Both the position numbers and the translations under genes were made by a program. Below, piece by piece: positions 12,693 through 52,616 of a DNA stretch of 64,000 nucleotides (the stretch's first letter is position 1; the number at the start of each line of letters is the position of its first letter). The notes beneath the pieces were generated by a model. It was not told the origin of the DNA and did not search any database. It saw only the letters and a program-made list of their open reading frames with translations. The stretch is from Christiangramia forsetii KT0803 (GTDB taxonomy: Bacteria > Bacteroidota > Bacteroidia > Flavobacteriales > Flavobacteriaceae). The stretch covers positions 3,724,501 through 3,788,500 of the forward strand of contig NC_008571.1 of assembly GCF_000060345.1 (NCBI RefSeq). Direction: 5' to 3'.

Positions 12693-12713
12693 ATCCTTGT
12701 TTATATCTTTGAC

Positions 12714-12721
12714 GTTTTTTG
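12714..12721 (+). promoter_or_regulatory. Possible -7 box upstream of ssb
   Basis: TATCTTTG matches the TAnnTTTG consensus, but no TTG element is found at the expected distance, so the call is weak. Confidence 0.3.
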
Positions 12722-12804
12722 CCCAATCAGGCAGAAATTTTTAGTATTTTAGAATAAATTTTGACTCAATAAAACCGTTTTTCGGCTAATAAAAAATGTA
12801 GGTA

Positions 12805-32516: not shown

Positions 32517-34200
<1,684 letters not shown>

Positions 34201-37370: not shown

Positions 37371-37624
37371 TTGTAAATTTCGTGCAATTAACGCTTTTTA
37401 ACAAATATTTTTTATTCAATAATTATGCAAAAGTAAAATTTGTCTGAAAATATAGGGGTTTTCATAAACATTATTGTCTATTAAGTTAATTCTAATGCGA
37501 ATAACGTTATTTGCAGATTCGTATTTTTCCTGTTAGATTTTTGGAGGATATTGTATAATTAGAATTATTTGTTAAAACTTTTTATAGACTTCATTAAGGC
37601 TGTATTTTCAATAAAAATCCTAAT
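37371..37624. promoter_or_regulatory. Divergent intergenic region upstream of the arsenosugar locus
   Basis: A 254-base AT-rich gap between the minus-strand AraC gene and the plus-strand 60-aa gene. On the minus strand TACTTTTG (37428-37435) fits the -7 box for the AraC gene but has no clear -33 element. I found no full consensus promoter for the plus strand, no hairpin of note and no RNA gene. Confidence 0.35.
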
Positions 37625-37807
37625 ATGAGTACAGATAAAGATAGATCTTCGCCTGTTCCTACAGATCATAAAAAATCTGAAGACGGTGTAAATCAGTCAA
37701 CCGAAACCAGAACTCAAAATTCCCGTTCAAAATTATGGGTTGTTATACTAGTGGTAATCATTTTTTTGCTTATCATTCTTGCGATTACCGGCGTAGTGAA
37801 TTTGTAA
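37625..37807 (+). CDS. 60-residue single-pass membrane protein
   Basis: A short protein with a polar, charged N-terminal half (residues 1-35, rich in Ser, Thr, Asp, Lys) and one C-terminal transmembrane helix (WVVILVVIIFLLIILAITGVV, about 38-58), i.e. a tail-anchored design. I do not recognise a family. It is the first plus-strand gene before the arsenosugar set, 49 bases ahead of the AhpD-like gene, and could share its message. Coding status rests on the composition and context only. Confidence 0.5.
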   Translation: MSTDKDRSSPVPTDHKKSEDGVNQSTETRTQNSRSKLWVVILVVIIFLLIILAITGVVNL

Positions 37808-37856
37808 AACTGAACGTCGTAATATTTCGTAAATAGTATAAACCAATAATGATAGT

Positions 37857-38192
37857 ATGTCTAAAAATTATTATGACGCTGCCGACTTAAGAAAATTTGG
37901 TGAAATAACCGAATGGAGTGAAGAACTGGGAACAAAATTCTTTGACTATTATGGAAAAGTTTTTGAAGAAGGAGCTCTTTCTGCAAGGGAAAAATCGTTG
38001 ATAGCCCTTGCTGTATCACATGTGGTGAAATGTCCTTATTGTATAGATGCTTATACAAAAGATGGTTTGCAGCGTGGGATCACCAAAGAAGAAATGATGG
38101 AAGCGGTTCATGCCGGTGCTGCAATTGAAAGTGGCGCGACATTGGTGCATGGAGTGCAAATGATGAATAAATACAAGAAACTGAGTATGTAA
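37857..38192 (+). CDS. AhpD-like, arsenosugar-associated CxxC protein
   Basis: A 111-residue carboxymuconolactone decarboxylase/AhpD-fold protein with the redox pair C59-P-Y-C62 in HVVKCPYCIDAYTK, followed by the helix GITKEEMMEAVHAGAAIESGATLVHG. This short form is the type found next to ArsS radical-SAM genes and annotated as arsenosugar-associated peroxidase-like protein; some relatives have selenocysteine in the first Cys position, here it is TGT cysteine. A reductant or peroxide role for arsenic intermediates is plausible, not shown. It opens the cluster, 46 bases before arsS. Confidence 0.85.
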   Translation: MSKNYYDAADLRKFGEITEWSEELGTKFFDYYGKVFEEGALSAREKSLIALAVSHVVKCPYCIDAYTKDGLQRGITKEEMMEAVHAGAAIESGATLVHGVQMMNKYKKLSM

Positions 38193-38238
38193 GTTTCCCA
38201 TAACTTATCATACTAACCCTGTAAATTGAATTACCTTT

Positions 38239-39297
38239 ATGCTTACTAAATCGCTTAAAGCGAGAAAGGACGACCTTTCAAGCCCTAAAAATCAATTAAA
38301 GTTTTTAAATAATGGAATCTTTAAAGAGGGGGAACTTCCTCGATTTAAAGATAAAATTGCAGAAACTGGAAATTTCCCCTTAAAACCTAAAAAGCTGGAA
38401 ATTCTTCAATTAAATCTTGGTTACATGTGTAACCAGGTATGTTCTCATTGTCACGTTGATGCCGGTCCAGATAGAAAGGAGATCATGACTAAAGAGACCA
38501 TGGAACAGTGCCTGGAAGTTATTAAAACTACCGGAGCACATACTTTAGATCTTACAGGGGGTGCACCGGAGATGAATCCTAATTTTAGATGGTTTGTAGA
38601 GGAAGCTTCGAAAGCCGGGATCAAAGATTTTATTGTACGATCTAATCTTACCATTATTCTTGCAAATAAAAAGTATCACGATCTTCCGCAGTTTTTTAAG
38701 AAGCATAATGTCCATGTAGCTTCATCGCTTCCTTTTTATAAAAGGGAAAAAACCGATAAGCAGCGTGGTAGTGGAGTGTTTGATAAGTCTATCAAAGCTT
38801 TACAGATGTTGAATGAAGTTGGTTATGCCCAGGAAGGTACCGGTCTTAAACTAGATCTGGTCTATAATCCCTCCGGAGCATTTTTACCTACCGACCAGGA
38901 AGCTATGGAACATGATTTCAAAGTTGCCTTAAAAGAGGATTTTAATATAGATTTTAATAGTCTTTTCGCTATTACCAATTTGCCAATAAGTCGTTTTCTT
39001 GAATATTTAATAGCATCAGAGAATTACGAAGATTATATGTATGCACTGGTAGAAGCGTATAATCCAACAGCGGTAGAAAATGTAATGTGTACCAATACTA
39101 TTTCTATTAGCTGGGATGGCTGGTTGTATGATTGTGATTTTAATCAAATGCTTGAGCTTAAGGTAGACAGTAAAGTGCAACATATCAGCGAGTATAACGA
39201 AGACCTTTTAAACGATAGAGAAATTATAATTTCTCAGCATTGCTATGGCTGTACTGCCGGAGCAGGAAGTAGCTGTCAGGGAACAGTAACAGAATAA
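38239..39297 (+). CDS. arsS: Arsenosugar biosynthesis radical SAM protein ArsS
   Basis: Radical-SAM enzyme of 352 aa. The SAM-cluster motif is C64-x3-C68-x2-C71 in GYMCNQVCSHCHVDAGPDR. A cysteine-rich C-terminal motif (CYGCTAGAGSSCQG, C335, C338, C346) and C-x-C segments in the middle (NVMCTNT, LYDCDFNQML) are typical. In cyanobacteria ArsS transfers the 5'-deoxyadenosyl group of SAM to dimethylarsenite, making the first carbon-arsenic bond to the ribose. The C-terminal motif is all cysteine here, so no Sec insertion is needed. The DUF2064 gene follows after 8 bases. Confidence 0.93.
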   Translation: MLTKSLKARKDDLSSPKNQLKFLNNGIFKEGELPRFKDKIAETGNFPLKPKKLEILQLNLGYMCNQVCSHCHVDAGPDRKEIMTKETMEQCLEVIKTTGAHTLDLTGGAPEMNPNFRWFVEEASKAGIKDFIVRSNLTIILANKKYHDLPQFFKKHNVHVASSLPFYKREKTDKQRGSGVFDKSIKALQMLNEVGYAQEGTGLKLDLVYNPSGAFLPTDQEAMEHDFKVALKEDFNIDFNSLFAITNLPISRFLEYLIASENYEDYMYALVEAYNPTAVENVMCTNTISISWDGWLYDCDFNQMLELKVDSKVQHISEYNEDLLNDREIIISQHCYGCTAGAGSSCQGTVTE

Positions 39298-39305
39298 ATA
39301 GCAGA

Positions 39306-39986
39306 ATGAGGAATAATTCTGCTGTTCTAATTTTTGCAAATACTGTTGAAAAAGAGATTTTGAAGAAGGGAATTCCTTCTTCTGAATTTTTTGACGAGCT
39401 CAATGAACAGGTACTTCGGACTGTAAAAAAATCTGGATTAACTTATTTCCTGATTACTGAAAATGAGCAAATCGGGAATTCTTTTGGCGAACGTTTTAGT
39501 AATGCTATTCAGCAGGTATTTGATAAGGGCTATGAAAATGTTATAAGTATTGGAAATGATACTCCGCAACTTACAGCTGCTCATTTAAGACAGACCAATG
39601 AACTGCTTCGGGATAAAAAGATCGTACTTGGTCCTTCCCTGGATGGTGGATTTTATCTCATGGGTATTCATAAATCTCTCTTTAGAAGAGCGCAATTCTT
39701 GAAATTACCATGGCAAACCGCCAGTTTAGTAAAATGTGTTGAAAGATTAATTCATAAATCCGGAGCTGCCAGTTATCGGTTGGAAGTGCTTCAGGATATT
39801 GATGATGCCAAAGACTTAAATTCTTTACTTCATATTTTTAGCGGAATTTCGTCAGAGATACGCCGCATCATTGTTCAGCTTCTAAGAAAAAGCTTCTCAT
39901 TCTTTCAAAAGAAGCAAAAAATAGAAAGAAGCACTTACCAGTATAGCTTTTACAACAAAGGTTCTCCCGTAATACTTCATAATTAG
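39306..39986 (+). CDS. DUF2064 glycosyltransferase-like protein, divergent paralogue
   Basis: A 226-residue GT-A/CofC-like protein of the DUF2064 (TIGR04282) family. The central part is clear: VISIGNDTPQLTAAHL (80-95) and VLGPSLDGGFYLMG (107-120), which carry the metal and acceptor-site residues. The N-terminal nucleotide-binding loop PVAGKVKTRLA of the paralogue at 47.6 kb is missing, replaced by VEKEILKKGIPSSEFF. A basic C-terminal tail of about 50 residues is extra. It may have a changed donor or be a regulatory partner. It follows arsS by 8 bases, so the two are surely co-expressed. Confidence 0.82.
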   Translation: MRNNSAVLIFANTVEKEILKKGIPSSEFFDELNEQVLRTVKKSGLTYFLITENEQIGNSFGERFSNAIQQVFDKGYENVISIGNDTPQLTAAHLRQTNELLRDKKIVLGPSLDGGFYLMGIHKSLFRRAQFLKLPWQTASLVKCVERLIHKSGAASYRLEVLQDIDDAKDLNSLLHIFSGISSEIRRIIVQLLRKSFSFFQKKQKIERSTYQYSFYNKGSPVILHN

Positions 39987-40038
39987 TTGAACTCAGGCTG
40001 AACTCTTCAGCAAACACTCATTTTAACTTAACTAACCA

Positions 40039-43000
40039 ATGAAGTTTATTTTCATAAGCATTGCTATGTGCTTATCACTATCTGTATTTTCACAACAGAA
40101 AATCACGGGTAGGGTAACCGATAGTTCGGGAATTGCACTTCCTTATGTGAACGTGATTCTGGAAAATTCCTCAAAAGGAACTACTACCAACGATGCCGGG
40201 CGATATAGTATTAGTCTGGAAAAACTGAAAGGAAATCTTGAATTCTCCTCTCTGGGATATAAAACACAACTTGTACCGATAAAGGGAAGGAATACTATTG
40301 ATGTGGTCTTTTACGAGTCTGAATCTGTCCTTAATGAAGTGGTGGTTACCGCTTTGGGACAGGCCCGAGAAACCCGGGGTCTTGGGTATGCTGTACAAAG
40401 CATTCAGGAGAAAGAAATTTCAGAAGTTAAGGCTCCGAATTTCCTTGATAATCTGGGCGGAAAACTTGCCGGGGTCACCGTTAACCAGGGTGCAACTGGA
40501 GTAGGCTCATCTACAAAAGTGACGATTCGGGGAGAAGCTTCTTTTTCTAACAACAATCCATTGTTAATAGTAGACGGTACTCCTATTAATAACAATACTG
40601 TATTCCCGGCAACTTCTGAAGCTGCTGCAGGATTTCAGGAGGTAGATTTTGGAAATGGAGCTATGGAAGTGAATCCAGATGATATCGCTTCGGTTTCGGT
40701 CTTAAAAGGTCCTAGTGCAGCAGCACTCTATGGTACGCGTGCTTCTAACGGGGTTATTATTATTGAAACTAAAGATGGTTCTAAACAAAAAGGCTTGGGA
40801 ATTAGTATAAATTCCAGTGTTTTTATAGATACCGCTTTTCAATTACCTGAATTTCAGAACGAATTTGGACAGGGAAATTCAGGTCAGTTTGAATTTGTAG
40901 ATGGTCTTGGAGGTGGAATCAACGATCTAATTACTTATAGCTGGGGTCCGAGACTGGATGTGGTAAATATGATTTCGCAATTCGATAGCCCGGTAGTTTT
41001 AGATAATGGAACGTTAGTTAGAGGAGGAGATACTTCGGTCTATGGAGAAGAAGCTATCACTCCTACTGCTTTCAATTCCCATCCCGATAATTTGAAGGAT
41101 TTTTATAGAACAGGAGTGACAACGATTAACAATGCCGCAGTTTCTTCCGGTTTTAATAATGGTAATTATCGTCTGTCGTTTACCGATCTTCGAAGCGAAT
41201 CTATTCTTCCGGGAGTTAATTTAGACCGGCAAACCGTAGCAGCCAGTTTAAATTTTAAGCCATTAAGAGGTCTGAAAATAAGGTCTCATATTAATTACGT
41301 GAATTCCGGTAGCGATAATCGGCCTGCAAATGGATATGGTTCAGAAAACCTGAATTATTCTCTGGTTGCGTGGGGTCCCCGTTCTTTAAAGATCGAAAAT
41401 TTAAAAGATTACTGGCAGCCCGGGCTAGAAGGTGTAAAGCAGTTCTCTTATAATTACACCTATTTTGATAATCCATATTTTACGCTTTATGAAAATACCA
41501 ACTCCTTTGGAAGGGATCGTGTTTTTGGAAACATTTCTGCTACCCAAAAGATCAATTCCAATTGGAGCGTGAGTTTACGTTCGGGAATGGATTATTCTAA
41601 TGAAAAACGGAAATTTAAACGAGCTTTCAGTTCTAACAGGTTTAAGAATGGCGCTTACGGCGAGCAGGATGTACTTTATAGGGAAATAAACACCGATTTT
41701 TTAATAAACTATACCAAAGATTTTGGCGATATTTCTGCTGATATTTCTTTCGGCGGAAATAGATTAGACCAGAAGGTTTCGAATACACAAAGTCAAACAA
41801 CAACACTTGCACAGCCTGGGGTTTTCAAACTTACTAATGCAGCTTCACCAATTGAAGTGTATCAGTTTGAATCTGAAAAACGGATTAACAGCCTCTACGG
41901 AATTGCGAAGTTGAAGTATAAGAACTTTCTCTTTCTGGATGTAACCGGAAGAAATGACTGGTCGAGTGCACTGGCAACACCATTTTCAGTAGATAATACC
42001 TCTTTCTTTTATCCTTCGGTTTCTTCCAGTTTTATTTTATCTGAAGTGATAGAATTGCCTGAAGTGATATCTTTTGTGCAGCTACGCGCAAGTTGGGCGC
42101 AGGTTGGAAACGATACAAACCCTTATCAAACTACGGGCGCTTTTGTGTCGCAAACTCCTTATAGATCGCAACCTACCTACAGTGATCAGAACATTATTTC
42201 CAATCCTAACTTAAATCCTGAGCAAACAACTTCGTATGAGGTAGGAGGTGATATTCGCTTTTTCAATGATAGACTGCGCTTTGATGTGACTTATTATAAT
42301 GCATTGACTGAAGACCAAATCCTTTCCCTACCTATAGGGATTTCTTCAGGCTATACCCAGAAAGTAGTGAATGCAGGAAAAGTACGATCTCAGGGGGTGG
42401 AAATTATTGCCGGAATGGTTCCTATTAGAACTTCTAATTTTCAATGGGACGCCACATTTAATTTCAGCAAGAATGTTTCAAGAGTGGAAGAGTTGCCGCA
42501 GGAAGCCGGTAGATTAACGCTGGCATATAATAGAATTTATGATAATCCAGATCAAACCGTTTGGCTACAGGTGGAAGAAGGTGGTGAAATAGGAGATCTT
42601 TACGGAACCGGCTATAGAAAGAATGAAAATGGAGATTTTATTTTAACGGAAGAAGGCCGTTATATAGCCGATAATAATTTGCAGAAATTAGGGAACTATA
42701 ATCCCGATTTTATGCTGGGCATCAATAATAACTTCAATTATAAAAACTGGAATCTTTCGTTTCTTTTTGATTGGAGACAGGGCGGAATCCTGGTTTCCAG
42801 AACCAGAGCCTTAGCAACGGTTGGCGGACAACTAGCTGAAACCACTCCACGACCTGAAGAAGGAATAGTACCCCAAGGTGTGGTAAATATGGGGACTGAA
42901 GAGAATCCTGAATATGTGCAAAATACGACTGCAGTTTCAGCAGAGTCGTATTATCGCCAGTTTTATGATCGAAATCATGAAGAAAATAATACTTACGACG

Positions 43001-43254
43001 CTTCTTATTTGAAGTTGAGACAATTTTCCCTTGGATATACATTTGATCTTAAGAACGATTTTCTTGGATTTATGAAGCAGGGCGGTACCGTGAATCTTTC
43101 GTTGATTGGCAGGAATCTATTTGCACTTAGCGAAATTCCACATTTTGATCCTGAACAACTTGCTGTACAGGGACAGGGTTTTATCAGCGGAGTGGAAGAT
43201 ATGTCTTATGCGACTACGAGAAGTATAGGATTTAAAGCAGGGATTAATTTTTAG
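40039..43254 (+). CDS. SusC/RagA-type TonB-dependent transporter 2, in the arsenosugar cluster
   Basis: A 1071-residue outer-membrane transporter. Signal peptide MKFIFISIAMCLSLSVFSQ, carboxypeptidase-D-like domain (QKITGRVTDSSGIALPYVNVILE), plug with LKGPSAAALYGTRASNGVIIIETKDG, and a barrel ending in AGINF. It needs TonB energy and pairs with the SusD-like gene. It starts 52 bases after the DUF2064 gene without a terminator, so it may take up an arsenical, an organic precursor or a sugar for the cluster; the substrate is unknown. Its barrel is only distantly related to the pair at 15-19 kb. Confidence 0.92.
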   Translation: MKFIFISIAMCLSLSVFSQQKITGRVTDSSGIALPYVNVILENSSKGTTTNDAGRYSISLEKLKGNLEFSSLGYKTQLVPIKGRNTIDVVFYESESVLNEVVVTALGQARETRGLGYAVQSIQEKEISEVKAPNFLDNLGGKLAGVTVNQGATGVGSSTKVTIRGEASFSNNNPLLIVDGTPINNNTVFPATSEAAAGFQEVDFGNGAMEVNPDDIASVSVLKGPSAAALYGTRASNGVIIIETKDGSKQKGLGISINSSVFIDTAFQLPEFQNEFGQGNSGQFEFVDGLGGGINDLITYSWGPRLDVVNMISQFDSPVVLDNGTLVRGGDTSVYGEEAITPTAFNSHPDNLKDFYRTGVTTINNAAVSSGFNNGNYRLSFTDLRSESILPGVNLDRQTVAASLNFKPLRGLKIRSHINYVNSGSDNRPANGYGSENLNYSLVAWGPRSLKIENLKDYWQPGLEGVKQFSYNYTYFDNPYFTLYENTNSFGRDRVFGNISATQKINSNWSVSLRSGMDYSNEKRKFKRAFSSNRFKNGAYGEQDVLYREINTDFLINYTKDFGDISADISFGGNRLDQKVSNTQSQTTTLAQPGVFKLTNAASPIEVYQFESEKRINSLYGIAKLKYKNFLFLDVTGRNDWSSALATPFSVDNTSFFYPSVSSSFILSEVIELPEVISFVQLRASWAQVGNDTNPYQTTGAFVSQTPYRSQPTYSDQNIISNPNLNPEQTTSYEVGGDIRFFNDRLRFDVTYYNALTEDQILSLPIGISSGYTQKVVNAGKVRSQGVEIIAGMVPIRTSNFQWDATFNFSKNVSRVEELPQEAGRLTLAYNRIYDNPDQTVWLQVEEGGEIGDLYGTGYRKNENGDFILTEEGRYIADNNLQKLGNYNPDFMLGINNNFNYKNWNLSFLFDWRQGGILVSRTRALATVGGQLAETTPRPEEGIVPQGVVNMGTEENPEYVQNTTAVSAESYYRQFYDRNHEENNTYDASYLKLRQFSLGYTFDLKNDFLGFMKQGGTVNLSLIGRNLFALSEIPHFDPEQLAVQGQGFISGVEDMSYATTRSIGFKAGINF

Positions 43255-43286
43255 TCCATAATGGGCATTTATAAATGAAAAGGATT

Positions 43287-43346
43287 CGTCAAGCTGAACA
43301 TGTTCCAGCTTCTCAATTTTAGGTTCTGAAGCAAGTTCAGAATGAT
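43287..43346 (+). repeat. Two-hairpin palindromic element between susC and susD
   Basis: First hairpin at 43291-43311 (AAGCTGAAC...CAGCTT, one bulged C), second TTCTGAA-GCAAG-TTCAGAA at 43324-43342. The phrase CTGAA...TTCAG is shared with dispersed palindromes frequent in Bacteroidota genomes (from memory). It lies in the 112-base spacer and may reduce or stabilise the downstream message. Confidence 0.6.
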
Positions 43347-43366
43347 GTAATTATAAAAATCAGAGG

Positions 43367-44806
43367 ATGAAAAAATATAAAAATATAGCAGTGATCGTTT
43401 TGGCAATTTTCGCCATGCTTTCCTGCACTAATAATTTCAAGGAGAAGAACACCAATCCTAATGCCCCGGTAGAAGTTCAACCTGGTTTATTATTGAGGCA
43501 GGTAATTTACGATTATGGCGAGCAAATGTCTTATGAGGGTTTTGTTGCCGGTAATTTGCTGGGGCAGTATTTAACTGCTCTGGATTTTAACCTTTTTGAT
43601 CGTCATGCTTTGAAGTCACCACAGTTGGGAGGAAATCCCTGGCCAATTCTCTATACCAATCTTCGCAATAATCAAATCATCCTGAATAAGTCAAGGGAAA
43701 ATGAAGCTTTTCGTGTTTATGAAGGTCCGGCATTGATACTAAAAGCCTATATGGCCGCAACTTTGACCGATCTTTTTGGCGATGTTCCTTATACTGAAGC
43801 TTTTCAGGGAAAAGAAGTGACAACAACCCCGGTATATGATGCGCAGGAGGATATTTATTTAGCTGAAGATGGAATTTTGGAAAATCTGGAGAATGGAATT
43901 GCAGCAATAGAGGCATATGATGGTAATTTTTCTTTAGAAGGGGATATACTTTTTGATGGAAATCTTGATAACTGGGTTCGTTTTGCCAATTCATTGAAGA
44001 TTAAATATTTGATGAGAATTTCTTCCCGGGAAAATGTTTCAGCTGAGTTACAAGAGCTTTATTCTGAAGGGAATTATATCAAAGAAAACGCTCAAAATGC
44101 GGTGTTTGACTTTACTTCAGGAGAGCCAAATAGTTTTAGAATGCAACAACTAAGAGTTGGTGATTTTAATAATTTCGTCATGTCTGAAACAATTGAAGAG
44201 ATACTTGTAGAATTAGATGATTCAAGAATAGAAGTTTTATTTAGGCCAACGGCAAATGATGATGCCATTTATAACGGACTTATAAACGGAATTGATGCTT
44301 CTCAAACTTCTATTTCCCCTGCAAATTATTCGTATGCAGGAATGATTTTCAGAGAAAATACAGGTGTTTTAGACGCCAATTTTCTTACTGCCTGGGAAAC
44401 CAATTTCTGGCTGGCAGAAGCTGCTGAAAAAGGAATGATTTCCGCAAATCCTGAAATGCTTTACAACACTGCAGTAGAACAAAGTTTTGATTACTGGAAT
44501 ACACCCTTTTCTGAAGAATATTTAAACGGGACGGCTGCATATGGGACAACAGGAAATAATATAGAGCAAATTATTACTCAAAAATGGATTGGGAATATGA
44601 TTAATGGATATGAAGGCTGGATTGAGTGGCGAAGAACCGGCTATCCAGATCTAAAACCCATTTCTGCCAGCCTGAATAATGATTTAATTCCTGTTAGAAT
44701 GCCATATCCTACAGAAGAAGAAGCGTTAAATGCTGAAAATTTCGACGAAGCGGCTGCGGCTACTGATGGGAATAGTATCAATTTCCCGGTATGGTGGGAT
44801 GAGTAA
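43367..44806 (+). CDS. SusD/RagB-like lipoprotein 2, in the arsenosugar cluster
   Basis: A 479-residue lipoprotein (lipobox FAMLSC, lipidated C20) of the SusD-like type with the SusD/RagB architecture: LTDLFGDVPYTEAFQG (about 125-140), WVRFANSLKIKYLMRIS (197-213) and WETNFWLAEAAEKGM near the C-terminus, with the closing YEGWIEWRRTGYPDL. This subfamily often binds ligands other than starch. It follows its SusC partner after a spacer with two hairpins. Confidence 0.9.
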   Translation: MKKYKNIAVIVLAIFAMLSCTNNFKEKNTNPNAPVEVQPGLLLRQVIYDYGEQMSYEGFVAGNLLGQYLTALDFNLFDRHALKSPQLGGNPWPILYTNLRNNQIILNKSRENEAFRVYEGPALILKAYMAATLTDLFGDVPYTEAFQGKEVTTTPVYDAQEDIYLAEDGILENLENGIAAIEAYDGNFSLEGDILFDGNLDNWVRFANSLKIKYLMRISSRENVSAELQELYSEGNYIKENAQNAVFDFTSGEPNSFRMQQLRVGDFNNFVMSETIEEILVELDDSRIEVLFRPTANDDAIYNGLINGIDASQTSISPANYSYAGMIFRENTGVLDANFLTAWETNFWLAEAAEKGMISANPEMLYNTAVEQSFDYWNTPFSEEYLNGTAAYGTTGNNIEQIITQKWIGNMINGYEGWIEWRRTGYPDLKPISASLNNDLIPVRMPYPTEEEALNAENFDEAAAATDGNSINFPVWWDE

Positions 44807-44816
44807 ATGAATTTCT

Positions 44817-44842
44817 TGTCATCCTGAGCGCAGTCGAAGGAT
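44817..44842 (+). repeat. Single dispersed repeat unit (CTGAGCG-AGTCGAAG type)
   Basis: TGTCATCCTGAGCGCAGTCG followed by AAGGAT; the core CTGAGCGCAGTCGAAG (44824-44839) recurs inverted and direct at 59756-59771 and 59822-59837. It lies between the susD-like and symporter genes. This unit is a well-known dispersed sequence in Bacteroidota genomes (from memory). Confidence 0.75.
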
Positions 44843-44874
44843 GCTTTCGAACCTGAATATTAAAAGTGAATTAA

Positions 44875-46227
44875 TTGATTGATTTTTCTGAAATAGCACC
44901 GGTTTACTGGCAATGGTGGTTGCTTATAGTCTCCAGTCTGGCATTTTTGATATTGTCGCCCTGGGCAAAGACTAAAGCGCAGTTTTTCAAAGCTACCTTC
45001 CGTAATAGAGCTCCAAGTGCAGGGATGCTCACCGGGAGCCTTATAATTTCCTGGATCTTTGCCAAGAGCATTACCAATGCTGCAAATCTTGGGCTTGATT
45101 TTGGGATCGTTGGAGGAGTTGCTTACGCGGGGTATTACCTTTCTTTTGCGATCGCTGGGATCATAATTTACTTAATGCGGGTAAAAGGTGGTTTTAAAAG
45201 CATCCACCAGTTTCTTATTGAAAAGTTTGGCAGGGGAGCAATTGTTATTTTCTCGATTCTTATCAGTATTCGGCTTTTTAATGAGGTTTGGTCCAATACC
45301 ATGGTAATCGGAAGTTATTTTGGTGAAATTGGATCATCATCCTTTTACTGGTCTATTCTAGTGTTTACAGTGTTAACCCTGGCCTATGCACTAAAGGGAG
45401 GCCTTAGTAGTTCCATTTTTACCGATGTGATCCAGATGGGCTTATTCGCTGTATTGCTATGTGTGATCTTGTGGAATATTTTTAGCATTGGAGAAATGGA
45501 GGTGAAAGAAGTTGTAAGCTCTGGTGACTGGACCATGGCTACAGGATTGAATCTGCTTTTTGCGGCGGTATTGCAATCTTTTAGTTATCCGTTTCATGAT
45601 CCTGTATTAACCGATAGAGGCTTTATTAGTAAACCTAAAACTACGCTTCGAAGCTTTATATTTGCTAGTATTTTCGGCGGAATCTGCATTGTTTTATTCA
45701 GTATTATTGGTGTCTATGCTCAGAAAAACGGAATGGAAGGTCAGGCGGCCGTTGAGGTTGGGAAGTCTTTTGGAGTGGTGATATTATTGGTGATCAATTT
45801 TATCATGATCACCTCTGCGGCATCTACCCTGGATTCTACTTTTTCATCATCTTCAAAATTATTAACCCTGGACCTGAAATTTGGAAAAACTATCAAATCA
45901 GGTAGAATCGCGATGATCATTGTGGCGATACTGGGAACAATTCCCGTTTTCCTAAATGCTGAAATACTTTCAGCAACTACCATTTCAGGAACAATGGTTA
46001 TTGGCTTAACTCCTATTTTTATATTCTGGAATATGAAAGTGCCGAAGATCAGTTTCTATCTTAGTGTGATTTGCGGACTCGTTTTTGGATTCCTACTGGT
46101 CTTTAATTTTTTCCCTCAATTCCTGATTTTTACGGAAGGTCCCTATGCCGATCTTCTGTGGATTAATATTTGGGGAATACTTAGTTGTATAATCTTATAT
46201 TTGATCCCGAAATGGCTGAAAAAGTAA
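44875..46227 (+). CDS. Sodium:solute symporter (SSS family)
   Basis: A 450-residue inner-membrane protein with about 13 helices and SSS features: AKSITNAANLGLDFGIVGGVAYAGYY (first helices), ALKGGLSSSIFTDVIQMG near the middle, and ITSAASTLDSTFSSSSKLLTLD (about 305-326), the conserved sodium-site helix. The start is TTG (MIDFSEIAPVYWQWW); no better ATG precedes the first helix. It overlaps the metallophosphoesterase-like gene by 16 bases. In context it probably moves a cluster substrate across the inner membrane after SusCD uptake. Confidence 0.88.
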   Translation: MIDFSEIAPVYWQWWLLIVSSLAFLILSPWAKTKAQFFKATFRNRAPSAGMLTGSLIISWIFAKSITNAANLGLDFGIVGGVAYAGYYLSFAIAGIIIYLMRVKGGFKSIHQFLIEKFGRGAIVIFSILISIRLFNEVWSNTMVIGSYFGEIGSSSFYWSILVFTVLTLAYALKGGLSSSIFTDVIQMGLFAVLLCVILWNIFSIGEMEVKEVVSSGDWTMATGLNLLFAAVLQSFSYPFHDPVLTDRGFISKPKTTLRSFIFASIFGGICIVLFSIIGVYAQKNGMEGQAAVEVGKSFGVVILLVINFIMITSAASTLDSTFSSSSKLLTLDLKFGKTIKSGRIAMIIVAILGTIPVFLNAEILSATTISGTMVIGLTPIFIFWNMKVPKISFYLSVICGLVFGFLLVFNFFPQFLIFTEGPYADLLWINIWGILSCIILYLIPKWLKK

Positions 46228-47036
46228 TCGATCTAAATAATATTGAAGGGAGAATCCTTGTATTCGGGGGTGTTTATAGCAACCTACAGGCATTACAGGA
46301 ACTCATTCATAAGGCTGAATCTTTAGGGATTCCTCCTGAAAACTGTATATGCACAGGAGATATTGTTGGTTATTGTGCACAACCGGAAGAAACGGTGCAG
46401 GCTTTCAGGAAATGGGGCGCTCACAGCATCGCCGGGAATGTCGAAATTCAGCTTGCGGAAGATAAGGAGGATTGTGGATGCGATTTTCGTGAAGGCTCTC
46501 GTTGTGATGACTTTTCAAAGCAATGGTATCCTTATGCTAAAATTCATCTTTCTCAGGCTTCCATTGAATGGATGAAAGATTTACCGCTTCATATCCGATT
46601 TAATTATGTCGGAAAGAAGGTGCAGGTAGTTCATGGCTCGGCTTTTCAGGTTTCAGAATTTATTTTTAAGTCTACAGATTGGTCGCTTAAACAACGGAAT
46701 TTTACTGAAACTGACACCGATGTGATCATAGCAGGTCATTGTGGATTACCATTTTCGCATTCAAAAGAAGAAAAATTATGGCTGAATCCCGGGGTTATTG
46801 GAATGCCTGCAAATGATGGTTCTCCTAAAACCTGGTATGCGGTCCTGGATTCAGAAAAGAAAATTACTTTTGATCATCATTCCTTAAAATATGATCATCA
46901 ACTGGCAAGTTCACTCATGATGAAGAACCAGTTGCCGCAAGAATATGCACGAACCCTTATTACCGGAATTTGGGATAACACCGAAATATTACCCGGCCTG
47001 GAAAGCGGTTTACAGGGGTTTGGCTTAAATGTTTAG
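46212..47036 (+). CDS. Metallophosphoesterase-fold protein with degenerate metal site
   Basis: A 274-residue protein; I take ATG 46212 (MAEKVIDLNN) rather than the upstream 46185, which lies deep in the symporter. It matches the MJ0912-type phosphoesterase fold: GDIVGYCAQPEE (49-60), VHGS, GH and NPGVIGMPANDGSPKTWYAVLD. However motif I, normally DIHGN, reads GVYSN (20-24), GNHD reads GNVE (75-78), and GHTH reads GHCG, so several metal ligands are lost. It is also cysteine-rich (C45, C47, C55, C88, C90, C98). Probably not an ordinary phosphatase; a role in binding arsenic or a phosphosugar is conceivable. Confidence 0.82.
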   Translation: MAEKVIDLNNIEGRILVFGGVYSNLQALQELIHKAESLGIPPENCICTGDIVGYCAQPEETVQAFRKWGAHSIAGNVEIQLAEDKEDCGCDFREGSRCDDFSKQWYPYAKIHLSQASIEWMKDLPLHIRFNYVGKKVQVVHGSAFQVSEFIFKSTDWSLKQRNFTETDTDVIIAGHCGLPFSHSKEEKLWLNPGVIGMPANDGSPKTWYAVLDSEKKITFDHHSLKYDHQLASSLMMKNQLPQEYARTLITGIWDNTEILPGLESGLQGFGLNV

Positions 47037-47090
47037 AAAACAATAACATCTCTTGTCGCTTTAAATTCGTAAATAGAAGAAAGAATTACT

Positions 47091-47591
47091 TTGAAGAACC
47101 TACTAATTATACTTTTTATAATATCCGGCTGCTTAATCGCATCAGCGCAAGATAAACCTTTAGACAAATTGTTATCCAGGTATAATAGTGGAAAGGTTTC
47201 ATATATCTCTGTGGAAGAGTTGAAGATGAAATACTTGAATGATGCTGTGGTTATTTTGGATGCACGGGAAAAGATAGAGTATGATGTGAGCCATTTGCCC
47301 GAGGCAATATTTGTTGGGTATTCCAATTTTTCTGAGGATGAAGTCTCAAAGAGGTTTAAAGACAAATCTGCTTCTATCGTGGTCTACTGTTCTATAGGGA
47401 TTCGTTCAGAAAATATTGCTGAAAAACTTCAAAAAGCTGGTTATACAAATGTTTCAAATTTGTACGGTGGAATCTTTGAATGGAAAAATACAGGTTTTAA
47501 GGTTTTTTCCAACGGGAAAGAAACGAATAAAGTACATGCCTTCTCCAAAAACTGGGCGAAGTATCTAGAAAAAGGCGAAAAAATATATTAA
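47091..47591 (+). CDS. Exported rhodanese-domain protein
   Basis: A 166-residue protein with an N-terminal signal (MKNLLIILFIISGCLIASAQ; ISGC could serve as a lipobox) and one rhodanese domain. The active-site loop is C100-S-I-G-I-R-S and the CDC25-like VILDAREKIEYDVSHLPEAI precedes it. It is thus periplasmic or lipidated, unlike cytoplasmic sulfurtransferases. The start is TTG. The next gene begins directly after its stop codon. Arsenate reductases share rhodanese-like folds, so arsenic or sulfur chemistry is possible; not shown. Confidence 0.86.
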   Translation: MKNLLIILFIISGCLIASAQDKPLDKLLSRYNSGKVSYISVEELKMKYLNDAVVILDAREKIEYDVSHLPEAIFVGYSNFSEDEVSKRFKDKSASIVVYCSIGIRSENIAEKLQKAGYTNVSNLYGGIFEWKNTGFKVFSNGKETNKVHAFSKNWAKYLEKGEKIY

Positions 47592-48209
47592 GTGACTGAA
47601 ATAAATAAAGAAAAATTACTTCTCATATTTACAAAAAATCCGGTTGCCGGAAAAGTAAAGACCAGGCTGGCGAAAGATCTTGGAAATGAGAAAGCACTCG
47701 AAATCTATAAGTTTTTATTAGATCATTCTGCAAAATTTACTTCTTCTGTAAATGCTGCTAAACAGGTTCATTATTCCGATTCGGTTAATAACAATGATAT
47801 CTGGAATAATGAGATGTATTCAAAAAAGAAACAATTTGGGGAAGATCTTGGTGAGCGCATGCTGAATGCGTTCAAAAATGGATTTGAAGAGAATTATAAA
47901 AAGATAATTGTCATTGGAAGCGATATGTATGATATCGATTCTAATGATATTGAAAATGCTTTCGAGGAATTGGAAAATCACGAGTATGTAATTGGACCTG
48001 CTGAAGATGGCGGGTACTATCTATTCGGGATGAAATCCTTAAATTCGGACGTATTTAAAGATAAAGAATGGGGAACTTCCAGTGTTTTAAAAGATACTTT
48101 GAAAGATCTTAGTAATGAAGACGTCAAATTACTGGAATCCCGAAACGATGTAGATCTATTGGATGATATTAAAGATCATCCTGCATTTCAAAAATATATA
48201 ACTATATGA
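47592..48209 (+). CDS. TIGR04282-type arsenosugar biosynthesis glycosyltransferase
   Basis: A 205-residue CofC-like GT-A protein with the complete family set: LLLIFTKNPVAGKVKTRLAKDLG (nucleotide-binding loop, residues 9-31), GERMLNAFKNGF, VIGSDMYDI and VIGPAEDGGYYLFG. This group recurs with arsS and arsM. It likely transfers a sugar or nucleotide to the arsenoribose. The start is GTG, zero bases after the rhodanese stop, and it overlaps the phosphorylase gene by 4 bases (ATGA). Confidence 0.9.
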   Translation: MTEINKEKLLLIFTKNPVAGKVKTRLAKDLGNEKALEIYKFLLDHSAKFTSSVNAAKQVHYSDSVNNNDIWNNEMYSKKKQFGEDLGERMLNAFKNGFEENYKKIIVIGSDMYDIDSNDIENAFEELENHEYVIGPAEDGGYYLFGMKSLNSDVFKDKEWGTSSVLKDTLKDLSNEDVKLLESRNDVDLLDDIKDHPAFQKYITI

Positions 48210-49018
48210 CCGATAGAATAAACGAATCTGTAGATTATTTAAAATCCAAAGGCTTTGGTGAGCCGGAAGTCGGAATCATCTTAGGTACAGGCCTGGGGAA
48301 ACTTCTGGATGATGTAGAAATAGAAGTAGAAGCCAGTTATAACCATATACCTTATTTTCCAACCGCCACGGTAGAATTTCATAAAGGGAAGCTGATCTTC
48401 GGAACGCTACAAGGGAAAAAAGTAGTGGTGATGCAGGGCAGGTTTCATTTATATGAAGGTTACAGCCTGTTTGATGTTACCTTTCCGGTAAGGGTAATGA
48501 AGCGTTTGGGGATGAAAAGATTATTGGTTTCCAACGCATCAGGAGCAATTAATCTTGATTTTAAAGAGGGAGAATTAATGCTGATTGATGATCACATTAA
48601 TTTACAAGGTGGATCTCCTTTGGCTTTCCATGGTGTTGAAAAACTGGGAGAACGTTTTGTGGATATGAGCGAACCTTATGATGCTACCATGAACCAAATT
48701 TTTGAAGAAGCTGCCAAAAACCAGAATATCACTTTACATAAAGGAGTATATGCTTCGGTTGTTGGTCCGCAACTGGAAACCAGGGCAGAATATCGATTTT
48801 TGAAAATTATCGGTGCAGATGCAGTAGGAATGAGTACGGTACCGGAAATTATTGTGGCGAATCATTTGGGAATCCCGGTTTCAGCAATTTCTGTGATCAC
48901 AGATCAGGGTGATCCTGAGAATCTTGAAAAAGTGAATATTCAGAAGATACTCGCCAATGCGGCGAAAGCAGAACCTGATATGGTGAAATTATTTAAAGAA
49001 TTACTTCAGAAGATATAA
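48206..49018 (+). CDS. Purine nucleoside phosphorylase
   Basis: A 270-residue trimeric-type (PNP/MTAP family) enzyme: GIILGTGLGKLLDD (phosphate loop), GRFHLYEGY, VSNASGAINLDFKEGEL, VVGPQLETRAEYRFLKIIGADAVGMSTVPE. It cleaves purine nucleosides with phosphate to base and ribose-1-phosphate. Placement between the TIGR04282 gene (4-base overlap) and arsM strongly suggests it removes adenine from the dimethylarsinoyl-adenosine made by ArsS, leaving arsenoribose-1-phosphate; this is inference. General purine salvage is the alternative. Confidence 0.9.
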   Translation: MTDRINESVDYLKSKGFGEPEVGIILGTGLGKLLDDVEIEVEASYNHIPYFPTATVEFHKGKLIFGTLQGKKVVVMQGRFHLYEGYSLFDVTFPVRVMKRLGMKRLLVSNASGAINLDFKEGELMLIDDHINLQGGSPLAFHGVEKLGERFVDMSEPYDATMNQIFEEAAKNQNITLHKGVYASVVGPQLETRAEYRFLKIIGADAVGMSTVPEIIVANHLGIPVSAISVITDQGDPENLEKVNIQKILANAAKAEPDMVKLFKELLQKI

Positions 49019-49019
49019 C

Positions 49020-49988
49020 ATGAGTTATTTAGAAACGACCAAAGATGTATATAGAGACGCAGCATTAACTCCAGATGTTGGATTGTGTTGTACTACCAAT
49101 CCTGTTTGGGAATTACCGGGTTTAAAGATACCTAAGATCATGCAGGAGATGAATTATGGCTGCGGAACTACCGTGCATGCAAGAGATCTCACCAACGACC
49201 CCAGAATACTTTATGTAGGTGTAGGTGGAGGAATGGAGTTACTGCAGTTCGCTTATTTTTCAAGGCAAAAATCTGGTGTTGTAGGGATAGATGTAGTAGA
49301 TGAAATGCTGGAAGCTTCCAGAAAGAATTTCAAAGTAGCAGAAGAAATGAACCCGTGGTTCAAATCAGAATTTGTTGACCTTAAAAAAGGGGATGCCACA
49401 GATCTGCCTGTAGAAGATAATTCTATTGATGTAGCGGCTCAGAATTGTCTTTTCAATATTTTTAAAACTGAAGAGCTTACCAAGGCTTTGAAGGAAATGT
49501 ATCGGGTATTGAAGCCGCATGGGAAACTTGTAATGAGTGATCCTACTTGTGAGCAGGAGATGAATGACGAGTTGAGAAACGATGAAAGACTACGTGCATT
49601 ATGTCTTAGCGGAAGCTTATCTATCAAAGATTATGTAAAGGCACTAACCGATGCAGGTTTTGGTACAATTGAAATTAGGGCGAGAAAACCATACAGAATT
49701 CTGGATCCAAAAAACTATCCTACTGAAGAACTCGTATATATAGAGTCTATTGAAGTTGCGGCGATCAAAGATCCAATGCCGGAGGATGGCCCCTGTATCT
49801 TCACCGGAAAGGCGGCAATTTATTATGGACAGGAAGATCTTTTTGATGATAAAAAAGGACATATTTTACTAAAAAATCAACCTTTAGCAATTTGCGATAA
49901 AACAGCAAATGCTTTAGCCGACTTAGGTCGCGATGATATTTATATCAGTGAGTCTACTTTTCATTATGATGGAGGAGGCTGCTGTTAA
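49020..49988 (+). CDS. arsM: Arsenite methyltransferase ArsM, arsenosugar type
   Basis: A 322-residue SAM methyltransferase. The SAM motif is YVGVGGGMELLQF (65-77). Arsenic-binding cysteines typical of this subtype are C23-C24 (GLCCTTNP), C48 (GCG), C143, C177 and C195, and the protein ends GGGCC. The NPVWELPGLKIPKIMQEMNYGCG segment is specific to the arsenosugar-linked ArsM. It methylates As(III) to dimethylarsenite for ArsS. It starts one base after the phosphorylase gene. Confidence 0.94.
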   Translation: MSYLETTKDVYRDAALTPDVGLCCTTNPVWELPGLKIPKIMQEMNYGCGTTVHARDLTNDPRILYVGVGGGMELLQFAYFSRQKSGVVGIDVVDEMLEASRKNFKVAEEMNPWFKSEFVDLKKGDATDLPVEDNSIDVAAQNCLFNIFKTEELTKALKEMYRVLKPHGKLVMSDPTCEQEMNDELRNDERLRALCLSGSLSIKDYVKALTDAGFGTIEIRARKPYRILDPKNYPTEELVYIESIEVAAIKDPMPEDGPCIFTGKAAIYYGQEDLFDDKKGHILLKNQPLAICDKTANALADLGRDDIYISESTFHYDGGGCC

Positions 49989-50005
49989 TTTTTAAAATTT
50001 AAACT

Positions 50006-50803
50006 ATGAAAAAGTTATTTTTAAGTTTTGCAATTCTAATTTCAGGAGCATGTATGTTTGCTTCCTGTAATCTTATTTCCAGTGCGGGATTAAACAGTAA
50101 AGGATTGCCTACTCCAGATGCTTCTGAACAATCGAGCACAGATAATTCAGAACAAATTGTGGATCACAGTATATGGGATGAACTTCTGAAAAAACATGTA
50201 AAGGAAAACGGACTGGTAGATTATAAAGGTTTTAAGAACGATCGTGAAAAACTGGATAAATACCTGAAAATGCTTTCTTCAAAAAATCCTTCGGAAGACT
50301 GGGGAGCAAACGAGTTACTTGCTTACTATATCAATCTTTATAATGCCTATACGGTAGATCTTATATTGAGAAATTATCCAGTAAAAAGTATTAAAGATAT
50401 TGATAGTCCATGGACAGAAGAATTTGTAAAAGTTGGGGATACCGAAATTTCTCTTGGCGGAATTGAGAACAGCGTGTTGCGTAAAATGAATGAACCAAGA
50501 ATTCATTTTGCTATTAATTGTGCTTCCATTTCATGTCCGAAACTTATGAACTGGGCCTATACAGCTGATAAAATTGATAAGCAGTTGGACCAGGCAACCA
50601 AAGAATTTATCAATTCAGACAAAAATGAGATTACGGCCAATTCAGCTAAATTATCATCAATTTTTGACTGGTATAAAAAAGATTATACAGAATCTGGGAT
50701 GAGTATTATTGAATATGTGAATCAATATTCCAATACGAAGATTAATTCTGGAACTAAGACTACCTATAAAGATTATAACTGGAACCTGAATGATACGAAA
50801 TAG
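50006..50803 (+). CDS. DUF547 lipoprotein
   Basis: A 265-residue lipoprotein (lipobox MFASC, lipidated C21) with a Ser/Thr-rich linker and then a DUF547 domain: LVDYKGFKNDREKLDKYLKML, LLAYYINLYNAYTVDLILRNYPVKSIKDI, INCASISCPKL and the closing FDWYKKDY. The conserved NCAS-SCP cysteines may form a disulfide or an active site. DUF547 proteins are common neighbours of arsenosugar genes in my recollection. It lies 17 bases after arsM and 5 before the next glycosyltransferase gene. The function is unknown. Confidence 0.86.
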   Translation: MKKLFLSFAILISGACMFASCNLISSAGLNSKGLPTPDASEQSSTDNSEQIVDHSIWDELLKKHVKENGLVDYKGFKNDREKLDKYLKMLSSKNPSEDWGANELLAYYINLYNAYTVDLILRNYPVKSIKDIDSPWTEEFVKVGDTEISLGGIENSVLRKMNEPRIHFAINCASISCPKLMNWAYTADKIDKQLDQATKEFINSDKNEITANSAKLSSIFDWYKKDYTESGMSIIEYVNQYSNTKINSGTKTTYKDYNWNLNDTK

Positions 50804-50808
50804 GTTTT

Positions 50809-51495
50809 ATGATTAGTATTATCATTCCGGCGTATAATGAAGAAGAACAGCTTCCTGTGTTGTTAAAGCATCTCGAAGCTGTTTCCTCGGGTTATATTTC
50901 TGAAATATTAATCGTGGATGGTGGAAGTACTGATAATACTGCTGAAATTTCCAGAAATCATCCAAAAGTATTCTATGTACCTTCAGAAAAAGGTAGGGCC
51001 GTTCAAATGAATACCGGTGCAAAACTTGCCCGGGGAAAAATACTTTACTTTTTACATGCAGATAGTTTGCCGCCCAAAAATTTTGATTCTTTAATTGTAA
51101 ATGAATTCAAAAATGGTAATAAGGCCGGCTGTTTTCAAATGAAATTTGATAAAGATCACTGGTGGCTTAATCTAATGGGGCACTTTACAAAAGTGAACCA
51201 CATTACCTGTAGAGGAGGTGATCAATCCCTGTTTGTTGAAAAAAATCTTTTTGATGAAATTGGTGGTTTTAATGAGACGTACAGGGTATATGAAGACAAT
51301 GAGATTATTAGAAGACTTTATAAAAAGAAACAGTTTACGGTAATTAAAAGCTGGATCACTACCTCAGCGCGCCTCTACGAAAGAATGGGAGTTTGGAATA
51401 CACAGTGGTTTTTTATTGAAATTTACTGGAAAAGAAGGCGTGGAGCTTCACCCGAAGAACTCTACAATCACTACTACAAAAGGCTTAGTTCCTGA
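50809..51495 (+). CDS. TIGR04283-type arsenosugar biosynthesis glycosyltransferase
   Basis: A 228-residue GT2 enzyme: MISIIIPAYNEEEQLP, the first aspartates in VDGGSTDNTAEI, the DxD motif region HADSLPP and RGGDQSLFVEKNLFDEIGGFNE, the family signature, then EIYWKRRRGASPEELY at the end. It is the glyco_like_mftF type that occurs with arsM, arsS and TIGR04282 proteins. It probably adds a glycosyl unit to the arsenoribose. Last plus-strand gene of the core cluster, overlapping the convergent glycosidase-like gene by 11 bases. Confidence 0.91.
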   Translation: MISIIIPAYNEEEQLPVLLKHLEAVSSGYISEILIVDGGSTDNTAEISRNHPKVFYVPSEKGRAVQMNTGAKLARGKILYFLHADSLPPKNFDSLIVNEFKNGNKAGCFQMKFDKDHWWLNLMGHFTKVNHITCRGGDQSLFVEKNLFDEIGGFNETYRVYEDNEIIRRLYKKKQFTVIKSWITTSARLYERMGVWNTQWFFIEIYWKRRRGASPEELYNHYYKRLSS

Positions 51496-52522
51496 ATTTT
51501 TCATAGTATTCTTTAATTATATTTTCAGCAGGTTTATTTTGGGGGGTAAAACGGTTATTATCTAGTCCGCCAGAAGTTTCATGCTGATGCCATTTCCAAA
51601 TATAACCGCCGGCAAACCAGCTTTGGGTCCAGAACTCTTCATAGATAACTTTCAGCGCCCTCGCTTGTAGACTATGGTTTGTCCCAATAATATCCCTATT
51701 TGAATTCCAGGGTTCTTTTAAAGAATAATCAATACTTCTATAACCATATTCTGTAAATACCACCTGCTTATCATAATTAGAAGACAGCTTTTCAAGCATT
51801 ATTTTATGCTTTTCCCACCCCTGCTTGATCTCTTCTTCAGTAGGAGAAATCTTTTCACTTAAAGGGAAATAAGCATCTACACCAATATAATCTAATTGTT
51901 TCCACAGATCTATCTTATCAGCTTTATCCCAGTTTTCGGCATATACCAATTTTCCATTGTAAACTTTTCGAATATCTACAATAAGTTCTTTCCAGAATTG
52001 AGGTCTGGAATTTACAAAGTTGTACAATTCTGTGCCAATGCATAAAATCTCAATATGGTGCTTTTCCGAGATCTTTGCATAGAGCATCATGTATTCTTTA
52101 TACGAAGCTTCAAATTGCTTCCATTCAGCTTCCGAAGAAAATTTGAGATTACCAGTGAAATCCCCATTTCTTAACCAGATGTGAGGCTTCATCATAATTT
52201 TCAAATTTTGCTCTTTCAAAAGCAAAATAGCCTGTTCTATGCCCTCAGCTTTTTCGCCAAACCACTGCCGTTCTATATTAAAGATCAATTCAGGGTTTTC
52301 CTTATTCCGCATAAAGGCATAGGGCATAAGTGCTACGGCATTAGCATTGATATTTATAATTGGATCCAGATGATTTGAATGAAGGCTGTCCCGGGAAGCT
52401 ACAAGACTAATCCCGTTGATTTTTTCCTTGTTATTAGAACTCTGGCAGGAACAAAGAAAGAGGGAGCCTATCAGCAATAAATAATTCAGGGAATTTCTGG
52501 TAAAGAAAAATTCAAATTTCAC
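51485..52522 (-). CDS. GH113-like glycosidase lipoprotein
   Basis: A 345-residue lipoprotein (lipobox LFLCSC) with a TIM-barrel pattern close to GH113/DUF-type glycosidases. The acid/base glutamate is in LCIGTELYNF and the nucleophile in VVFTEYGYRSIDY; KIMMKPHIWLRNGDF and YIGVDAYFPLSE are other strand ends. The start is GTG. GH113 enzymes cleave beta-mannan, but the family range is wide, so the substrate stays open. Monocistronic, convergent with the arsenosugar cluster. Confidence 0.8.
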   Translation of the reverse strand: MKFEFFFTRNSLNYLLLIGSLFLCSCQSSNNKEKINGISLVASRDSLHSNHLDPIININANAVALMPYAFMRNKENPELIFNIERQWFGEKAEGIEQAILLLKEQNLKIMMKPHIWLRNGDFTGNLKFSSEAEWKQFEASYKEYMMLYAKISEKHHIEILCIGTELYNFVNSRPQFWKELIVDIRKVYNGKLVYAENWDKADKIDLWKQLDYIGVDAYFPLSEKISPTEEEIKQGWEKHKIMLEKLSSNYDKQVVFTEYGYRSIDYSLKEPWNSNRDIIGTNHSLQARALKVIYEEFWTQSWFAGGYIWKWHQHETSGGLDNNRFTPQNKPAENIIKEYYEKFRN

Positions 52523-52616
52523 GCTTAATTCAAATTAAAATAAAGGGCTTTGCATACTGGTAAAAGCTTGAAATGATCCATGATCAAATTTAATTAGAAA
52601 TAAGCAAATTAATATC

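Follow-up and report, generated by a model that had tools for sequence, protein, structure and literature searches.

Arsenosugars are major arsenic compounds in marine algae and seafood, and their handling by heterotrophic bacteria has been poorly explained so far. The closest described system is the arsenosugar biosynthesis of cyanobacteria, in which ArsM works together with the radical S-adenosylmethionine (SAM) enzyme ArsS, the substrate of the latter being dimethylarsenite. A second point of comparison is offered by the SusCD loci for polysaccharides or peptides, where a SusC-SusD pair, of a kind widespread in Bacteroidota, adjoins an inner-membrane transporter. Adenosylation of arsenic by a radical SAM enzyme in oxo-arsenosugar biosynthesis is stated in an excerpt of PMC12159101, which cites Cheng et al. 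2021 on ArsS; none of the matches listed among open-licence papers linked genes for arsenosugars to uptake by SusCD or TonB, which is not proof of absence. We analyzed a 64,000-nt stretch of the single-contig genome (3,798,465 bp) of Christiangramia forsetii KT0803, bases 3724501–3788500, hereafter the window, in which a plus-strand gene run at window positions 37625–51495 brings the two systems together. Judged by its gene content and order, this locus is best explained as an arsenosugar-type biosynthetic operon with an inserted, self-contained cassette, ntA-susC-susD-sss-mpe.

In the list of open reading frames (ORFs), the run holds 14 genes when a 60-residue one is counted and 13 from the AhpD-like gene onward, the point from which an earlier note on this stretch had counted fourteen; the arrangement described there, on one strand with short gaps or overlaps, is accurate (intergenic gaps of 0–112 bp, maximum 112 bp, or small overlaps). 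The core comprises an AhpD-like protein (37857–38192; TIGR04169, 198.8 bits against a cut-off of 120), ArsS (38239–39297; TIGR04167, 441.4 bits, cut-off 300), a rhodanese-domain protein (rhod, 47091–47591; NF045521, 204.3 bits, cut-off 145), the nucleotidyltransferase/glycosyltransferase-like ntB (47592–48209; TIGR04282, 211.8 bits, cut-off 134), a purine nucleoside phosphorylase (pnp, 48206–49018; NF006054, 339.3 bits, cut-off 218), an arsenosugar-type ArsM (49020–49988; NF038099, 574.2 bits, cut-off 400), a DUF547 protein (50006–50803; PF04784, 8.3e-27) and a glycosyltransferase (gt2, 50809–51495; TIGR04283, 243.7 bits, cut-off 182), all on the plus strand. Thus, like the described ArsM/ArsS pathway, the operon has TIGR04167, TIGR04169, TIGR04282, TIGR04283 and NF038099 above cut-off; it differs by a two-membrane uptake cassette, which occupies the 7.8 kb between the end of arsS (39297) and the start of rhod (47091). 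On the same strand, this cassette consists of ntA, a divergent DUF2064/CofC-like gene (39306–39986; DUF2064, 3.4e-22), a SusC-type TonB-dependent receptor (40039–43254; TIGR04056, 573.5 bits, cut-off 368.25), a SusD-like lipoprotein (43367–44806; PF12771, 296 bits), an SSS/SLC5-type inner-membrane symporter (sss, 44875–46227) and a metallophosphoesterase-fold protein with a degenerate metal site (MPE, 46212–47036; Metallophos_2, 1.5e-10), whose start was placed at ATG 46212 rather than TTG 46185 because most homologues begin at the ATG position. Compared with SusCD loci for polysaccharides or peptides, the partners here are ntA, MPE and ArsS, and a Pfam search assigned none of the 14 genes to a degradative family of glycosidases, lyases or peptidases, among them the carbohydrate-active enzymes by which a polysaccharide utilization locus is recognized.

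The earlier note's assignments of arsS, arsM, the TIGR04283, phosphorylase, rhodanese and DUF547 genes and the SusCD pair were borne out, and others stood in part. The second of its TIGR04282-type genes, ntB, belongs to that family, while the first, ntA, scores 101.7 bits, under the cut-off, and lacks G-x-V-K-T-R-L; the symporter is clear by predicted fold and weak by sequence (TIGR00813, 1.8e-7 and 30.5 bits, below the cut-off of 184; no Pfam match); and the phosphoesterase-like protein has the fold, with three metal ligands lost. What had been called one large collinear arsenosugar locus is indeed collinear, and is more aptly seen as two parts, a biosynthetic core and an uptake cassette inherited separately from it. 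The families are known; new are their combination, its statistics, and the degeneracy of MPE and ntA.

Across the 80 named ArsS loci with which the window was compared, ntA-susC-susD-sss-mpe behave as a unit. The same genes recur jointly in many Flavobacteriaceae loci, here and in the genome samples described below, and the gene run is therefore not a chance one; this outcome comes from the gene-order comparison that the note had proposed. At three Christiangramia loci (L003–L005) the cassette is absent, and a search of these genomes revealed no such symporter; in L005, arsS and rhod are separated by 10 bases, versus 7.8 kb in the window. The window ArsS is 92–93% identical to the ArsS of three named Christiangramia records. 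The cassette also lies between arsS and rhod in Winogradskyella, Cochleicola, Algibacter, Marinirhabdus and Patiriisocius loci, and it is placed before ahpD or before an mpe-ahpD fusion in Maribacter and Flagellimonas. Other genomes carry four cassette genes beside arsS on the opposite strand (G242, L148), a five-gene cassette operon away from arsS (G001, G108, G200, G307 and G331), four genes as an operon away from arsS (G058 and G351), five genes at 180 kb from arsS (G560), or a rearranged form (G210). A reduced form, arsS-sss-mpe without ntA and SusCD, was found in L208, L224, L232 and L062; in the first three, the genes upstream of ahpD/arsS are mutually unrelated (judged by eye, with no family search), and no replacement outer-membrane partner was recognized among them. 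Conversely, ntA without the rest of the cassette adjoins ahpD or arsS, for example in L019, L020 and L034, whose genomes have no symporter. A 757-residue protein before ntA in L046 was considered as a receptor and rejected, being an Ig-domain protein. On the ArsS tree, cassette presence changes state at least 24 times. The cassette is thus demonstrably an intact and mobile unit.

The distribution of the cassette follows that of ArsS. Of the 395 genomes in a class sample, 66 have ArsS and 14 the symporter; ArsS was present in 13 of the 14 symporter carriers versus 53 of the 381 non-carriers (Fisher p 3e-10), and MPE (at least 361 bits) was found in exactly the same 14 genomes, the next MPE matches reaching 126 bits. 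A family sample comprised 199 genomes, each from a different genus; ArsS was found in 148 and the symporter in 30, all 30 lying within the 148 (p 6e-5), with a distance between arsS and sss of less than 9 kb in 29 of them; among the named genomes the symporter was present in 16 of 80 (10/50 and 6/30 in two batches). In 8 of the 13 ArsS-containing class carriers the cassette lies on another contig or ~70–90 kb from arsS, and therefore linkage alone does not explain the co-occurrence; in one of the carriers, G058, the contig measures 17 kb, and a contig break could hide linkage there. Moreover, MPE and AhpD form a single ORF in 11 loci of nine genomes and three families (by the sampler's family codes). 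The cassette is very probably tied functionally to the ArsS pathway in some way.

Next to this co-occurrence stands an enrichment of ArsM absence among the carriers. ArsM was scored with two models, the arsenosugar-type NF038099 and the generic NF008823, each over its cut-off; the generic search covered the 62 ArsS genomes without NF038099 and seven others, and three carriers with a generic match over cut-off were scored ArsM-positive, two of these matches containing a stop. Among the ArsS genomes of the family sample, NF038099 was absent in 14 of 30 carriers versus 17 of 118 non-carriers (p 3e-4), which sets the carriers apart from the described biosynthetic pathway. The generic model was present in 1 of these 14 carriers and in 10 of these 17 non-carriers, so that by both models ArsM was absent in 13/30 carriers versus 7/118 non-carriers (p 2.5e-6). 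Restricting the comparison to genomes at least 95% complete, which omits 23 of the 148 genomes and one carrier among them, gave 12/29 versus 3/96 (p 8.5e-7), and merging the samples, with each genome counted once and both models applied, gave 20/42 versus 18/165 (p 5.5e-7).

To allow for shared ancestry, independent pairs were counted on an ArsS tree of 154 of the 207 ArsS genomes, namely all 42 carriers and 112 of the 165 non-carriers. The non-carriers in the tree include 38 of the 39 without NF038099 but only 74 of the 126 with it; the sample is thus thinned on the ArsM-positive non-carrier side and therefore weights against an association. With both models and all branches, 24 independent pairs were obtained, 9.3 in the same and 1.6 in the opposite direction (median p 0.039, 5–95% 0.012–0.11). 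Phylogenetic correction therefore weakens the support for the association and does not remove it, and we regard this support as moderate.

The loss concerns arsM in particular, because 10 of the 14 family carriers lacking NF038099 have a locus without arsM in which rhod, ntB, pnp, duf547 and gt2 are all retained (L206, L207, L209, L211, L215, L218, L221, L224, L228 and L229). Among these ten, the generic ArsM match of G593 (L224) is interrupted by an internal stop, and G609 (L211) is 75% complete. The clearest layout is that of L229, ahpD-arsS-susC-susD-sss-mpe-rhod-ntB-pnp-duf547-gt2, with ArsM found by neither model and an ArsS 90% identical to that of the window. L209 and the named locus L042 (Algibacter pacificus H164) are one stretch, with identical MPE. 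A 387-residue protein after pnp in L221 was considered as a methyltransferase and rejected, being an MFS transporter. The other four carriers lacking NF038099 have Maribacter-like loci without rhod, ntB, pnp, duf547 and gt2. A Gramella-related metagenome bin without ArsM is described in an excerpt of PMC5430908 that mentions neither arsenosugar nor TonB.

Three non-carriers at least 95% complete also lack ArsM (G519, G571 and G536). In G536 (L254), the gene order is ahpD-arsS-ntA-TonB receptor-ABC solute-binding protein-permease-permease-ATPase-radical SAM-rhod-ntB, and the TonB/ATP-binding cassette (ABC) module is, by its predicted proteins, a two-membrane importer non-homologous to the SusCD cassette in the identical slot. 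The second radical SAM protein of this locus, after the ABC importer, has 314 residues (L254:17786–18727). A receptor-like outer-membrane barrel of ~1037 residues (cluster c66) was found near arsS in five cassette-free loci, all with arsM (L054, 11862–14972; L023; L069; L079; L116), and it adjoins ntA in L054 and L116; it scores slightly under the Pfam cut-off for TonB receptors and has no plug domain.

Based on these data, we consider it about an even chance (probability roughly 0.5) that the cassette imports a pre-methylated organoarsenical which feeds ArsS, supplementing or replacing ArsM. In the resident pathway, ArsM would methylate arsenite, and the AhpD-like protein, ArsS, the phosphorylase, ntB and the glycosyltransferase would build an arsenosugar from the dimethylarsenical and the adenosyl group of SAM. 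The imported compound, most likely a dimethylated form of arsenic or a soluble product released when algal arsenosugars or arsenolipids break down, would cross the outer membrane via SusCD with TonB energy and the inner membrane via the symporter. MPE may hold or process it and pass it to AhpD, with which it forms one polypeptide in some species; AhpD, through its CPYC motif, would reduce the arsenical to the trivalent form for ArsS, which would adenosylate it before the core enzymes complete the sugar. By such a reduction, external methylated arsenic could supplement or replace ArsM. The gene order mpe-ahpD-arsS in Maribacter-like loci matches the proposed flow. We infer what is transported and in which direction, that AhpD reduces it, and what MPE and ntA do. 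The earlier note had taken the import genes to suggest that the cell takes up a substrate or scavenges arsenicals; this is supported indirectly, by the co-occurrence with ArsS even when unlinked, by the MPE-AhpD fusions and by the enrichment of ArsM loss, and that the substrate is an arsenical we likewise infer.

Several observations weigh against an imported methylated arsenical. By either model, 17 of the 30 family carriers keep ArsM, the window genome included, so that the cassette cannot be read simply as its substitute, and a methyltransferase outside NF038099 and NF008823 would escape detection. In the class sample the absence of NF038099 is only weakly associated with the cassette (9/13 carriers versus 22/53 non-carriers, one-sided p 0.069). 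On the tree, well-supported branches alone gave 12 pairs, 6.1 same versus 0.7 opposite, with a median p of 0.07, and NF038099 alone gave median p values of 0.09 on all branches and 0.375 on well-supported ones. One carrier (G383; 89% complete, 840 contigs) has no ArsS over cut-off, its match scoring 33.7 bits. The MPE-AhpD ORFs retain a Met at the AhpD start, which makes separate translation possible. A symporter 45.5% identical to that of the window lies on a Marinobacter adhaerens plasmid (L307, NC_017507.1 91436–92797), where chemotaxis genes, but no ars gene, are among the annotated neighbors. The TonB/ABC module was found in one locus only (L254), and in the stretches near arsS of G519 and G571, where some proteins have no family, no importer was recognized.

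The transporters themselves bear on a rival explanation, that the cargo of the cassette is a co-substrate of the pathway other than an arsenical, such as a peptide thiol, a nucleoside, a sugar or an arsenosugar acceptor. The nearest solved chain to SusC is 5fq6_B, BT_2264 (E 1.4e-129; residues 76–1043 of 1071 aligned), for which an excerpt of PMC11817032 describes the fitting of peptides; since this is a peptide-type SusCD, the sequence gives no hint of an arsenical, nor can the substrate class be derived from it. The AlphaFold model of the symporter (predicted local distance difference test score, pLDDT, 84.9) has the fold of SSS/SLC5 members, with Foldseek matches to SGLT, CHT1 and SiaT (SGLT2: E 4e-12, probability 1.00), and its fold neighbors transport sugars, choline, sialate, urea and iodide. 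Both results fit a non-arsenical cargo and count against an arsenical one. The solved SSS members listed are 12–17% identical to the symporter, whose orthologous group is found almost solely with ArsS in the sampled class. The tight cassette-ArsS association would equally be expected for a co-substrate. The specific loss of ArsM, with rhod, pnp, ntB, duf547 and gt2 kept in 10 of 14 loci, is however left unexplained, and we consider this explanation rather unlikely.

Whole arsenosugars or glycerophospho-arsenosugars might instead be salvaged as such, as carbon or as a lipid head group, with MPE as a past or present phosphodiester-opening enzyme. Such salvage would agree with an uptake route across two membranes, with the core glycosyltransferase and with a fatty-acid-hydroxylase-like gene close by in 13 of 29 cassette loci. 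The MPE model (pLDDT 86.4) also has the fold of SapH/YfcE-type metallophosphoesterases, nearest to SapH, an Ap4A hydrolase and phosphodiesterase (3qfm; Foldseek 3qfn_A, E 1.6e-13). However, every one of the 59 cassette rows, which comprise 53 distinct sequences, has GxY for DxH and GH[CSA]G for GHTH but keeps GD, GN, the histidine of VHG and the first one of GHxH; 12 relatives outside the cassette retain FSD[IV]H and GH[TS]H. The full two-metal ligand set (DxH, GD, GNH, H, GHxH) is therefore incomplete by three ligands, both those of DxH and the second GHxH histidine; in the alignment with 3rqz the lost ligands belong to one metal and those of the other are kept. Since these ligands are gone, ordinary two-metal phosphodiesterase chemistry is unlikely, and salvage of this kind appears improbable. 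The Cys residues in GYC and RC further set the cassette MPE apart, and CGC is common to its relatives. Similarly, the N-terminal motif G-x-[VIA]-K-[TS]-R, which we take to be the nucleotide-binding motif of the CofC/GlmU superfamily, occurs in 0/63 ntA-like versus 83/118 ntB-like ORFs, and 53 of the 63 ntA-like ORFs have an NKGSP-type C-terminus (ORFs were assigned by the better match to window ntA or ntB, same-genome repeats included). MPE and ntA thus look like proteins that have kept a phosphate- or nucleotide-sugar-type fold and not its usual catalysis.

It is very improbable that ArsS of the ArsM-less carriers acts on another arsenical or a non-arsenical, in which case the ArsM correlation would reflect a changed pathway and not a changed arsenic source; among the matches listed in the open-licence literature no paper treats the biochemistry of a Bacteroidota ArsS, which leaves room for such a change, but every counted ArsS match exceeds the TIGR04167 cut-off (66/66 class and 148/148 family genomes), and the downstream genes are kept in those same ten loci. 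That a SusCD nutrient cassette merely hitchhikes with arsS would suit the many state changes on the tree and the abundance of SusCD pairs in Bacteroidota, but is scarcely credible, and already disfavored, in the face of ArsS in 13/14 class and 30/30 family carriers, its persistence in the unlinked ones and the MPE-AhpD fusion.

Around the gene run, an AraC-type regulator (36324–37370, minus strand; Pfam HTH_18, 1e-15) is divergent from the operon and also lies upstream in cassette-free Christiangramia, Zunongwangia and Salegentibacter loci (L003–L007), making it a candidate regulator of the core locus. The 60-residue gene (37625–37807, plus strand) encodes a single-span membrane protein with homologues of 69–83% identity in the same place in Christiangramia L003–L005; an NCBIfam search gave no match and Pfam one below cut-off. 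Convergent with gt2 is a GH113-like glycosidase gene (51485–52522, minus strand), the cluster of which is present in 24 of the 141 ArsS-centered stretches analyzed and may therefore belong to the arsenosugar pathway. Downstream follows, also convergent, the fatty-acid-hydroxylase-like gene (52617–53573, minus strand), distant relatives of which (23–28% identity) precede duf547 in 13 of the 29 cassette loci L206–L234; such neighbors would fit arsenolipid formation. Between ntB and pnp, L232 encodes a secreted DM13-domain protein (12235–12930), which cluster c33, present in 10 of the 141 stretches, resembles by eye. Farther upstream in the window, a Cpn60/TCP-1-type chaperonin gene (32560–34200, plus strand) precedes an AHSA1-domain gene on the opposite strand. 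A tRNA search of the window found none, hence no sign of a tRNA-linked insertion, and an Rfam search of the window gave nothing at gathering scores. The Bacteroidetes-type promoter pattern TTTG-N17-24-TANNTTTG occurred 7 times in the window versus 5.5 expected and sigma-70-like sites 51 times within 37000–52700 versus 50.9 expected, and these counts were rejected as evidence for promoters; terminator-like sites numbered 20 versus 10.8 expected.

Taken together, we tentatively propose, with rather less confidence than for the imported substrate itself, that Flavobacteria, and Bacteroidota related to them, have a two-membrane importer devoted to methylated arsenic or to compounds derived from arsenosugars, in which a repurposed, metal-site-degenerate phosphoesterase fold would deliver to an AhpD-like reductase and on to ArsS. 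Their own arsenic methylase would then be dispensable, arsenosugars being made from algal organoarsenicals, and a non-homologous TonB/ABC importer would have taken the same slot at least once. The ArsM-less carriers, the MPE-AhpD fusions and the empty-site comparison within one genus provide testable gene sets. If true, some bloom bacteria would be organoarsenical recyclers and not arsenite detoxifiers.

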